A stretch of 64,000 bases of DNA. Source: Steroidobacter gossypii. GTDB taxonomy: Bacteria > Pseudomonadota > Gammaproteobacteria > Steroidobacterales > Steroidobacteraceae. The notes beneath the pieces are model-generated. The model was not told the DNA's origin, did not search any database, and saw only the letters and a program-made list of their open reading frames with translations. This document shows positions 11,600 through 40,526 of this stretch, one piece after another (position 1 is the first letter of the stretch; every line of letters begins with the position of its first letter). Where the stretch lies: contig NZ_JAEVLS010000008.1 of NCBI RefSeq assembly GCF_016801985.1, positions 186,001 through 250,000 of the forward strand, given 5' to 3'. A program made the translations under genes and the position numbers.

Positions 11600-11608
11600 T
11601 CCTGCTCC

Positions 11609-11682
11609 TGGGGGATCGTCTAGCGGTAGGACTACGGACTCTGACTCCGTCAACCTAGGTTCGAATCCTAGTCCCCCAACCA
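11609..11682 (+). tRNA. tRNA-Gln (anticodon CUG)
   Basis: The 74-base gene folds as a cloverleaf. The acceptor stem is TGGGGGA with TCCCCCA, the D stem GTC with GAC around AGCGGTAG, the anticodon stem ACGGA with TCCGT enclosing CTCTGAC (anticodon CTG at 11641-11643), and the T stem CTAGG with CCTAG around TTCGAAT. The discriminator A and an encoded CCA follow. The U1-A72 pair and the sequence are typical of bacterial tRNA-Gln. It decodes CAG. Confidence 0.97.
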
Positions 11683-11689
11683 AACTCGG

Positions 11690-11721
11690 ACAGGCCCACT
11701 TCGGTGGGCCTGTTTGTTTTT
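11690..11721 (+). terminator. Intrinsic terminator after tRNA-Gln
   Basis: A perfect ten-base-pair stem (ACAGGCCCAC with GTGGGCCTGT) closes on a TTCG tetraloop and is followed by TTGTTTTT. This is a textbook rho-independent terminator eight bases after the tRNA CCA end. It ends the rplM-rpsI-tRNA transcription unit. Confidence 0.93.
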
Positions 11722-11792
11722 GGGGCCTGCGTTTCGATTTGAAGAGCTTCGTCTTCGGTCTCGGTGGCGGGCAGCGCCTGGGAGGAGGTCAG

Positions 11793-11890
11793 TCCTCCCG
11801 GCACCGCTGCACTCGCCGCGCCCGCTATCGCGGCCGCATTGCTTGTACCTCCATGTAGCGCCAATGGGTCAACGTCCCTGTTGATCCCGG
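11793..11890 (+). repeat. Structured intergenic repeat, copy A
   Basis: About 98 bases that match the reverse complement of 12248-12345 at most positions. Shared words include TCCTCCCGGCACCGCTGCAC, CGCTATCGC, TGCTTGTAC, TCCATGTAGCGC and AATGGG followed by TCCCTGT. Just upstream, GGAGGA and TCCTCC (11781-11798) form a short dyad, but the long terminal inverted repeat of copy B is not preserved here. It lies in the gene-free stretch after tRNA-Gln, which has no convincing coding frame. Confidence 0.75.
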
Positions 11891-12058
11891 AGAACATACC
11901 TCCCCAGCCGCAGCCTGCAGCTTTGCTTTGGCAGCCCGGCTTTTCGAAGTGGTGTGCTGCGGCGTTCGATGTTCAACGCAGCCGCTGAATTAAAAGAATG
12001 AGCTCGTCTGCTTGCTCGGAATGGAAGAGAGCGCCGGCTGGATTAGCCGATGTGCTCT

Positions 12059-12195
12059 GAGCTTTCGGAGCACCGGGCCGGTATCAAGAGCTGTTTTTGC
12101 TCCGGACTTTCAGACACTGCGGTGGTATCGAGGCTGATGTTGAGCTTTCAGGCATTGCGGCGGTATCGACAACCGCTCTTGGTCTGAGCTTTCGA
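12059..12195 (+). repeat. Degenerate tandem repeat, about four units of 38-45 bases
   Basis: The word GAGCTTTC (once GGACTTTC) recurs at 12059, 12104, 12142 and 12186, in the first three followed by a GC-rich word and GGTATCRA, for example CAGACACTGCGGTGGTATCG and CAGGCATTGCGGCGGTATCG. The fourth copy is more diverged. It sits between the two inverted copies of the structured repeat and has no conserved reading frame. Confidence 0.6.
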
Positions 12196-12212
12196 ACTAC
12201 ACAGCGGCGTCG

Positions 12213-12365
12213 GCAGTGTCAGGGCTGGGTGCCTCCTCCCGGCAAATGGGACCGACAGGGATGTCGGCCCATTAGCGCTACATGGATGTACAAGCAGCGC
12301 GCGAGCGATAGCGAAGCGCGGCGGGTGCAGCGGTGCCGGGAGGAGGCACCCAGCCCTGGCACTGC
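12213..12365 (-). repeat. Structured intergenic repeat, copy B, with long terminal inverted repeats
   Basis: The ends, 12213-12244 and 12334-12365, are 32-base inverted repeats with a single mismatch. Inside are nested dyads: CCGACA with TGTCGG flanked by GGG and CCC (about 12248-12270), and GCGCTACATGGATGTAC near 12276-12291. The whole can fold into one long branched hairpin. It lies in the opposite orientation to copy A. No transposase is nearby, and it is not a family I can name. Confidence 0.8.
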
Positions 12366-12471
12366 GAGCCACTGAGGCCGAACAACCCGCCTCTTCGACT
12401 TCGCTGAAAGAAGCAGCGAGAATCACAACTCCACAAACACGCGCGCGCACGACGAAGAAGCGACACACAAC

Positions 12472-16511: not shown

Positions 16512-16804
16512 GCGGCCGATTATGCGTCCGGCCCCCTAGCGGGTCAAACCACCGAGTCGTGGATGAGAGTACCGGCCTCGGTACATGGATGTTCCCGCCG
16601 CCGCAGGCGGCGGCGAGCGACAAAAGTCACGCCTTTTATCGTCTCGCACGAGGGTCGTGGCAGGGCTCGGCGGCGCCTTTCAGCGGAGCATGCTTCGCTC
16701 CGCCGAGCGGGTGTACATGGATGTACACCCTGGGCTTACGCGGAGCAGGGACTGCACAGCGTAATGGCCGATCCCGAGTTTTGAGCAGTGCTAAGATAGC
16801 GGCG
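16512..16804. repeat. Intergenic region with TACATGGATGTA palindromes
   Basis: This 293-base stretch between the ZapB-like gene and ygfB has no convincing gene. It holds TACATGGATGTT at about 16582, a hairpin of GCCGCCGC with GCGGCGGC near 16594-16613, a CGGAGC-GCTCCG hairpin at 16684-16702, and a perfect palindrome with ten-base arms GGGTGTACAT and ATGTACACCC at 16709-16730. The TACATGGATGTA core is shared with the structured repeats near 12 kb, but the flanks differ. Promoters for both neighbours must also lie here. Confidence 0.6.
16789..16797 (+). promoter_or_regulatory. Extended -10 promoter candidate for ygfB
   Basis: TGC followed by TAAGAT forms an extended -10 element that ends seven bases before the ygfB ATG. 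This would place the transcription start at or immediately next to the initiation codon. No good -35 was seen, which is usual for extended -10 promoters. Confidence 0.45.
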
Positions 16805-27562: not shown

Positions 27563-27652
27563 AGAGGCGGGTATTGTAACCCCACGAGCCCCGCTCCATG
27601 AGCAATGGCCATCGCGTTCGGCTACCATACGCCCACCCATCGCAAGGCACGG
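27563..27652. promoter_or_regulatory. ispG / glycine-riboswitch divergent promoter region
   Basis: Ninety bases between the ispG start and the riboswitch. On the minus strand a TACAAT hexamer ends ten bases before the ispG ATG, implying a leader of about three bases. On the plus strand TACCAT (about 27624-27629) is the best -10 for the gcv transcript, which would start near the first aptamer. Neither has a convincing -35. Confidence 0.4.
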
Positions 27653-27875
27653 CCGGAGAGAGCGGGACCTACCCCGCCGCCGAAGGCGCAACCGCCCGGA
27701 AACGCTCAGGCAAATGAACGGCGTGCCCCTGTGAGACTGGCGGACATAAGGCCGCGGCTTACTCGGCGGGCTCTGGAGAGTAGCTGTCAGGCACAGGTCG
27801 GCAGTTCACCGAAGGGGAGAGGCGGCCGACGCAGCGGGTCGGCGCCGGATCTCTCAGGTATCAGGACAGAGGGGC
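27653..27875 (+). promoter_or_regulatory. Tandem glycine riboswitch of the gcv operon
   Basis: Two glycine aptamers lie in series. The first (about 27653-27736) has CGGAGAG, CCGCCGAAGGCGCAACCGCC and CTCAGGCAAA with a closing CCCCTGTGAGAC. The second (about 27771-27872) has CTGGAGAG, TCACCGAAGGGG and ATCTCTCAGGTATCAGGACAGAGG. The two are joined by a short linker. Such tandem glycine riboswitches turn on glycine-cleavage genes when glycine is plentiful, which fits the operon that follows. The expression platform between 27875 and the gcvT GGAG site probably controls ribosome access or termination. No clear terminator hairpin was resolved. Confidence 0.95.
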
Positions 27876-27940
27876 GTCGAGCGCGCAGGCGTTCGGCGCA
27901 ATGCTTTCACCTGATCCAACAACGGTCACCCGGAGCATCG

Positions 27941-39753: not shown

Positions 39754-40470
39754 TTGCAGGTTAAGGTCCTCGATCACGTTGCCGGAGCGCAAGCTGCGCA
39801 GGGCATCGCCGTCGTCATCGATGTGTTCCGCGCCTTTTCGGTCGCCGCCTACGCATTCTCTCGCGGGGCGGCGACCGTCATTGCCGTCGCCGAAGTCGAT
39901 GACGCGCGCGAACTGAAGCGCCAGCATCCGGATTGGCTGCTGATCGGCGAGCGCCACGCCAGGCCACTTCCCGGTTTCGATTGCGGCAATTCACCCAGCG
40001 ATCTGGAAAAGCTCGAGGTCGCCGGCCGCACGATCATCCACACCACTCACGCCGGCACTCAGGGACTCACCGCGGTGCCGGAGTCGGTGCCGACCATCAC
40101 CGGGGCGCTGGTCAACGCCGGCGCCATCGTTCGTTATCTGCAGTCGCTCCAGCCTGAAGTCGTGACATTGGTGCGCATGGGTCACGAAGCTCGCGAGAAC
40201 TGCGCCGAGGACGATCTGTGCGCCGAGCTGTTGCGCTCGCGATTGCTCGGCGAGCCGATGCCGGTCGGCGGAGTCCGCGAGCTGCTGAGAAAAGCGCCCA
40301 GCGCGCAGAAGTTCTTCGACCCGGCTTGCGATTGGGCGCCCGAGCGCGACTTCGATCTGTGCACGCGAACCGACGAGTTCGATTTCGTCCTTGCGCGCGA
40401 TGCGAGCGGCGCGCCGGCTCGCTTGCGCAAGATCGATGTGCCCAAGGCCCCACTCCAGGACCCAATCTAG
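39754..40470 (+). CDS. ComB-like 2-phosphosulfolactate phosphatase family protein
   Basis: A 238-aa protein of the ComB family, which hydrolyses 2-phosphosulfolactate in coenzyme M synthesis in archaea and in some bacteria. It begins with VKVLDHVAGAQAAQG and has VVIDVFRAFSVAAYAF, the LPGFDCGNSP motif, HTTHAGTQGL and VRMGHEARENCAEDD. A gammaproteobacterium has no obvious use for coenzyme M, so the true substrate is uncertain. A TTG start at 39754 is preferred because GGGAG lies eight bases upstream, although an upstream TTG at 39739 also exists. The stop lies in a tandem repeat, and the last residues are encoded by its first unit. Confidence 0.82.
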   Translation: MQVKVLDHVAGAQAAQGIAVVIDVFRAFSVAAYAFSRGAATVIAVAEVDDARELKRQHPDWLLIGERHARPLPGFDCGNSPSDLEKLEVAGRTIIHTTHAGTQGLTAVPESVPTITGALVNAGAIVRYLQSLQPEVVTLVRMGHEARENCAEDDLCAELLRSRLLGEPMPVGGVRELLRKAPSAQKFFDPACDWAPERDFDLCTRTDEFDFVLARDASGAPARLRKIDVPKAPLQDPI

Positions 40471-40526
40471 GACCCAATCTAGGACCCAATCTAGGACCCA
40501 GATCTAGGACCCAGATCTAGGACCAG
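40457..40526 (+). repeat. Tandem repeat of 12-13 bases
   Basis: Three units of AGGACCCAATCT followed by two of AGGACCCAGATCT and a partial AGGACCAG, running from 40457 to 40526. It starts inside the last codons of the ComB-like gene and includes its stop codon (TAG within each unit). Loss or gain of units would leave the encoded protein unchanged after the first unit. Confidence 0.95.

Follow-up and report, generated by a model that had tools for sequence, protein, structure and literature searches.

The gap between rpsI/tRNA-Gln and pyrD in Steroidobacter gossypii holds two inverted copies of a dispersed, structured repeat family, whose copies share a covarying fold and a pair of GGA hairpin loops. 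We judge the chances to be evenly balanced that this feature is a head-to-head copy pair of a dispersed, non-autonomous palindromic repeat whose GGA-strand RNA would present CsrA sites. Read from sequence and predicted structure, the element probably acts as RNA on the GGA strand, being transcribed and bound by CsrA, and it may be mobile, a spreading decoy for this global regulator. The conserved core would be two A-N-GGA-N hairpins at near-fixed spacing, held inside a long, fast-changing but still paired stem. A copy could be transcribed on the GGA strand either by read-through of a neighboring gene or from an initiation site within the spacer. Its RNA would then fold with both loops exposed, one CsrA/RsmA dimer could bridge the two hairpins, and each transcribed copy would either act as a decoy for CsrA or lend CsrA responsiveness to the neighboring transcript.

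Architecture of the locus

The window, meaning the whole 64,000-nucleotide stretch analyzed, lies on contig C30 of the S. gossypii genome (G000; 7.1 Mb, 32 contigs); the names of the flanking proteins were read from translations. The right module is a full-length type 1 copy of 153 nt on the plus strand (12213–12365). Its outer stem, P1, is formed by a 5′ arm (12213–12244) and a 3′ arm (12334–12365), the 32-base inverted repeats with one mismatch that an earlier note on this DNA had described; within 11600–12471, no inverted repeat with one mismatch or fewer exceeds these 32 nt, compared with a maximum of 17 nt in 60 dinucleotide shuffles. The outer 26 nt of the P1 5′ arm differ among copies, and the inner CCGGCA is invariant in 29/29 alignment seeds, which were chosen by that anchor. 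Enclosed by P1 are the P2 hairpin (12245–12273), with covarying pairs and CAGGGATG at 12256–12263, the P3 hairpin (12279–12290), with a 3-bp stem and CATGGATG at 12281–12288, and a GC-rich P4 region (12297–12320), which varies in length among copies and whose pairing lacks covariation support. Both P2 and P3 present ANGGAN loops. A 3′ tail of the GAGCCACYGASGCC type follows (12366–12385) and is alike after many copies, as judged by eye from the flanks.

The left module is a degenerate inverted copy on the minus strand. The covariance model R1 placed it at 11772–11913 (E = 6.6e-16), slightly wider than the 11793–11890 that the earlier note had matched to 12248–12345; all of the arms are present, at 11823–11888/12248–12313 (66 nt, 82%) and 11793–11821/12316–12344 (29 nt, 97%). 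It carries CANGGANG at 11873–11880 and 11848–11855 on the minus strand. The right module, itself a seed of the model, was matched by R1 over 12213–12365 (plus strand, E = 3.9e-34). Across the intermodule spacer (11914–12212), the 5′ ends of both modules face one another. The four degenerate units reported between the copies were found 5′ of the right module on the plus strand (12059–12212), at 12059–12103 (45 nt), 12104–12141 (38 nt), 12142–12185 (44 nt), and 12186–12212 (27 nt, abutting the right module); TRF at score 40 did not report them.

No sigma-70-like promoter was detected in a scan of the rpsI-pyrD gap. The sole terminator-like site in the gap follows tRNA-Gln (11687–11716, plus strand), adjoining the left module but outside the element, and none was found at either module. 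Rfam searches at gathering level returned no known RNA at the window modules. An assignment to a known Rfam RNA was also rejected at permissive thresholds, where the matches were all sub-gathering, mostly to microRNA hairpin models (strongest, mir-8186 on L107, 44.7 bits versus 80), plus Ysr224.

Copies in Steroidobacter genomes

The earlier note had proposed a genome-wide copy count, leaving a single local duplication as the other reading. A DNA search of the S. gossypii genome gave 20 matches, counting the module's arms matching each other, and 5 of 60 genomes searched, including this one, had a match, all within the genus. The R1 model, built from 29 seeds, gave 36 matches in S. gossypii, and those listed fall at no fewer than 24 separate places. 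Four closely related Steroidobacter genomes gave 56 (G009), 34 (G003), and 26 matches (G001 and G011 each), and nine other genus genomes had 0 to 4 each, such that 11/14 have at least one; these totals derive from the best 150 candidates scored per genome and include opposite-strand matches at the same place. Modules are 153–166 nt in length. The many further copies, together with the strong covariation described below, rule out a single local duplication.

Wrong strands of true copies score 35–64 bits with R1; therefore, the matches in the nine other genomes (at most 72.5 bits; for example, 52–72 bits in the distant members G002 and G013) could be explained by nothing more than a long stem. 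What ties them to the family is the loops at L106 and L107 (G002) and L108 (G013), loci that have P1 and two ANGGAN hairpins and no P4. The class-wide pattern introduced below occurs in exact form in two of the G013 matches. A pattern scan, from which near-identical records were possibly excluded, placed the core pattern in Steroidobacter sp. MAG-237, Steroidobacter agaridevorans, and Peristeroidobacter agariperforans. A Pseudomonas pattern match (L043) was dropped because the surrounding sequence reads as coding.

Modules at the 16 S. gossypii loci examined lie between called genes, with one exception that overlaps a low-scoring ORF call (L057). Gene pairs around the 17 own-genome loci (window included, three with partial modules only) were 7 convergent, 10 tandem, and 0 divergent, counted by eye from the gene calls. 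This distribution is what a transcription terminator or mRNA 3′-end stabilizer with irrelevant loops might produce; we consider such a role very improbable, since the GGA of the loops is constant among copies whose stems differ in sequence, the gap scan gave no terminator-like site at the modules, and 10 of 36 intergenic copies in the gammaproteobacterial genome G306 sit in divergent gaps.

Fold and covariation of the element

RNA folding of 12205–12385 gave −127.2 kcal/mol on the plus strand (z = −10.4) and −117.0 kcal/mol on the minus strand (z = −10.1), so folding alone cannot tell the strand. Of the 36 copies in which the P1 anchors are present on both sides, 29 served as seeds of the alignment A1; left out were four copies with fewer than 22/26 paired arm positions and three of a divergent subtype. 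Three more BLAST copies, including the left copy of the window, had no P1 anchor. RNAalifold on A1 predicted 51 pairs, 34 of which are changed on both sides, the compensatory pattern that the earlier note had suggested looking for. Alignment cells were paired at 98.0% versus 75.9% in shuffles, and the covariation score was 0.607 versus 0.177; 0/500 shuffles reached these values, and slides of 1–3 columns paired 38%–48%.

By helix, both-side changes occurred in 25/32 pairs of P1, 8/8 of P2 (helices 2 and 3), and 1/3 of P3, and in 0/8 pairs of the inner GC-rich helices. The procedure favors the P1 value, since this alignment also supplied the structure and its seeds had been selected for arms with at least 22/26 positions paired. 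Over the outer 26 pairs of P1, Watson-Crick pairing was 0.93 within copies and 0.51 across copies. This fast-changing yet paired stem is an unusual case of palindrome evolution, even without CsrA. The remaining cells of these 26 pairs were 31 G.U, 7 A.C, and 15 other mismatches. In the absence of RNA-level selection, G.U and A.C are expected alike; the excess of G.U therefore suggests that the GGA strand acts as RNA, with the caution that cells from related copies are not independent.

Template switching at replication, which corrects quasi-palindromes, could also be the main process that keeps P1 paired, in which case the covariation would record a mutation mechanism and not RNA selection. 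Long, near-perfect arms that differ among copies of the same species fit this idea (8/11 copies in G296 and 8/9 in G141, described below), but it does not account for the G.U excess on one strand or for covariation in all eight pairs of the short P2 hairpin, and we regard it as unlikely. The idea that the P1 arms were pre-existing host palindromes is weakened by arm ends that are alike within species, as judged by eye, and by the similar tail outside P1 in Steroidobacter.

Twin GGA loops and CsrA

Both loops in the 29 seeds follow the pattern A-N-GGA-N, with A in 28/29, GGA in 29/29, and both N positions variable. The closing pair is C-G in 29/29 seeds for P3 and 24/29 for P2, and the two GGAs are 23–27 nt apart in the type 1 seeds. 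For a wider survey, 116 model matches over 58 loci were reduced to 71 sites, the other 45 being the opposite strand of the same place. Two A-N-GGA motifs 20–32 nt apart were present in 66/71 sites on the GGA strand and 0/71 on the wrong strand, and 200 letter shuffles gave no more than 6. The sites without the twin motif were L071 left, L014, L012, L036, and a doubtful L037 site. A stricter twin motif, CANGGAN(G/C), was present in 53/71 sites; the 13 that passed the loose but failed the strict motif are mostly type 2, with P2 closed by G-C.

We take the twin A-N-GGA-N loops to be the RsmE/CsrA pattern. The RsmE consensus of Schubert et al. in 2007 is reportedly A/U-CANGGANG-U/A with a short closing stem. 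Paired A-N-GGA-N loops on short stems, the feature expected of a CsrA/RsmA-binding RNA, are thus present in the 29 seeds and in most of the wider survey. CsrA is encoded in 13/14 genus genomes, with four matches over the cutoff in S. gossypii. Across the 14 genomes there was no relation between CsrA gene number and element number: the copy-rich G009 and G003 have one CsrA each, and G002 has seven CsrA matches and four element matches. CsrA gene number therefore fails as a correlate of copy number. A literature search, mostly of papers outside subscription, gave no link of YPAL or such repeats to CsrA among the matches listed.

Head-to-head pairing and probable gain of a module

After removal of a match that looks spurious (L037:1301–1469, 35.9 bits), neighboring sites less than 1 kb apart formed 17 pairs, and 17/17 were arranged minus-left/plus-right with their 5′ ends facing, separated by gaps of 96 to 477 bp. 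Four of these pairs are in the S. gossypii genome (window, L054, L055, and L057). The 17 are not all independent because L095–L098 were chosen for known pairs, and L097 and L098 look like near duplicates. The pair at L055 (5189–5573) adjoins the RNase P RNA gene. In relatives, the rpsI-pyrD gap holds a pair in G011 and a right copy in G001; the gap of G003 (L070) gave no R1 match and is too diverged to use as an empty site.

A module at L060 in S. gossypii lies between two convergent genes that are adjacent in G009, G011, G001, and G003. All four relatives lack 562–584 query bases, including the module, and have 13, 22, 69, and 38 bp, respectively, at the junction instead. Gain in the S. gossypii lineage is the simpler reading; the alternative is loss in an ancestor of the four. 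An array of approximately 31-bp units directly 5′ of the module (between 4605 and 4977) is absent with it from the four relatives, and the start of its unit resembles the start of P1 by eye. At L053, the corresponding gaps are longer in G001 and G011. No target-site duplication, which the earlier note had thought worth seeking, was resolvable at L060, the one locus compared, as the junction letters are too diverged between S. gossypii and the four relatives.

REP/BIME with RAYT resembles the element in that its palindromes are scattered through intergenic regions and frequently occur as inverted pairs. The Steroidobacter modules are approximately 150 nt, whereas REPs are given as 20–40 bp in PMC3733652. 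The RAYT domain (Y1_Tnp, PF01797) had 0 matches in the S. gossypii genome, and 5/14 control genomes were positive; we therefore rejected the RAYT/REP reading. The earlier note's proposal of a mobile or folded element thus stands in its dispersal, covariation, and insertion-like difference at one locus, but its suggestion of a transposase or RAYT-like gene found no counterpart in this genome.

A purely DNA-level account would make the repeat a MITE- or REP-like mobile palindrome, its hairpins recognized as DNA by some transposase or replication enzyme and its GGA motifs resembling CsrA sites by coincidence. The dispersed copies and the stretch absent from 4/4 relatives at L060 favor it, as does the lack of orientation preference in G306; YPAL, moreover, is described as mobile in a report citing De Gregorio 2006 (PMC2229807), with filled and empty sites, target duplications of 3–26 bp, and dyad-symmetric targets. 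DNA-only selection does not predict 31 G.U against 7 A.C in the stem, nor an exact A-N-GGA-N pattern with free N, and the missing PF01797 match also counts against it. Plasmid and phage collections gave no match to the window module (a short, variable query of low sensitivity) and one partial plasmid match to the class-wide core, 31/71 bases inside an annotated oxidoreductase gene, again with an insensitive query. We rate this account as possible but rather doubtful.

A probable gammaproteobacterial form of the repeat

The closest known repeat to the CsrA-presenting element that we propose is YPAL/RU-2, a Yersinia palindrome whose sequence in Table 1b of PMC2759123 contains an AAGGAT-loop hairpin followed by gagcctacatggatgtatttacggcgtc. 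Like the Steroidobacter element, it is a dispersed intergenic palindrome (approximately 168 bp versus modules of 153–166 nt) with a twin ANGGAN core, the GGAs being 24 nt apart in that sequence. YPAL is also counted among stem-loop families of conserved structure in PMC2267715. The Steroidobacter type 1 element differs from YPAL in its P3 flank (GCTACANGGANGTACAAGC), its added P4 region, its copy-specific P1 arms, its tail outside P1, and its head-to-head pairing. The core letters of YPAL (GCCTACATGGATGTATTTACGGC type; pattern GCCTACANGGANGTATTYACGGC) had 0 exact matches in the S. gossypii genome; because the shape is common to both and the letters are not, the Steroidobacter element is a look-alike or relative of YPAL and not a member.

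The pattern GCCTACANGGANGTATTYACGGC was present in 25/369 gammaproteobacterial genomes (24/271 genera), with the backward control at 0 throughout, and in 12/398 genomes of a phylum-wide draw, all 12 labeled as the same class. The highest count was in G306, with 177 + 167 matches (344 exact copies). In most fetched copies, GCCTACANGGANGTATTYACGGC forms the P3 of an element with an upstream P2 and a long P1; exceptions with broken or missing stems include L109, L117, and several G306 copies. Among 80 class-wide copies, CANGGANG was upstream in 46 (44 at 23 nt), an upstream GGA stood in another context in 30, and there was none in 4. In G296, 8/11 copies had 21–26 Watson-Crick pairs of 26 in P1 against a cross-copy mean of 9.6, and in G141, P1 was near perfect in 8/9 copies against 14.7; these within-copy values are the best over several offsets, which favors them. 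In G599, five class-wide cores form a regular array, 227–229 bp apart (C1:94446–95378).

Over 75 class-wide copies, the GGA strand has 173 G.U pairs and the opposite strand 116, a modest excess. Of the 41 copies in 400 kb of G306, 5 fall within called ORFs of 150 aa or more and 36 are intergenic, in gaps that are tandem (17), divergent (10), or convergent (9), with no orientation preference of elements relative to genes. Several observations speak against the CsrA explanation, namely the mismatch in gene number, the failure to detect a sigma-70-like promoter in the gap, this lack of orientation preference, and the modest G.U excess; the G306 copies within ORFs, the lack of covariation in the inner helices, and the class-wide copies whose upstream GGA is in another context (30/80) or missing (4/80) do so too.

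Our best reading is that the Steroidobacter form is a lineage-specific elaboration of a type of repeat found in gammaproteobacteria, YPAL among them, with common descent of the Steroidobacter and class-wide forms inferred. More tentatively, and with the balance somewhat against it, the class-wide repeats could be selfish or domesticated elements with a predicted CsrA dimer site per intact copy, together making a distributed sponge of tens to hundreds of copies, arranged in Steroidobacter as paired units. If the twin loops bind CsrA, the repeats described from Yersinia as mobile palindromes would be components of the Csr network that spread, in many gammaproteobacteria and at up to hundreds of sites per genome, and titration of a global regulator by dispersed repeats would be open to direct test.

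Comparison with known RNAs

The RNAs CsrB, RsmY, and RsmZ come from few dedicated loci with many sites each, whereas the element is spread over many copies, each with two candidate sites enclosed by a long stem. They resemble it in that GGA in hairpin loops is offered to CsrA, according to PMC4383904 and PMC4333381. The nearest RNA idea is TwoAYGGAY (RF01731), which likewise has two hairpins with AYGGAY loops and is proposed as a CsrA-binding sRNA in PMC4333381; the motif is also listed in PMC2864571. The RF01731 model had no match in the 14 genus genomes, with control genomes silent as well, and none among the matches listed for the scanned type 1/2 and short-form loci.

Ysr224 (RF02770), which PMC9029176 lists as responsive to temperature and as one of the 20 most prevalent sRNAs, gave weak matches (19–32 bits versus a gathering score of 70) on the class-wide form, opposite to the GGA strand. 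These were found in 7/10 short-form loci scanned (L106, L107, L110, L112, L120, L152, and L155); none was reported at L108, L116, or L118 or at any of the nine Steroidobacter loci of types 1 and 2 included in the scans.

Other features of the window

Another repeat at 16663–16766 is 91% identical over 105 nt to L065/L020, one place in the same genome. It contains an 8-bp hairpin with CATGGATG at 16716, and its counterpart in L065 abuts a truncated module. Further CANGGANG sites with short complementary flanks are located at 16584 and 15868, near the 6S RNA gene. Elsewhere, two glycine riboswitch aptamers lie in tandem at 27643–27879, and a tandem array at 40445–40524 has a 12-bp unit, AGGACCCAATCT, in 6.5 copies with 94% matches.
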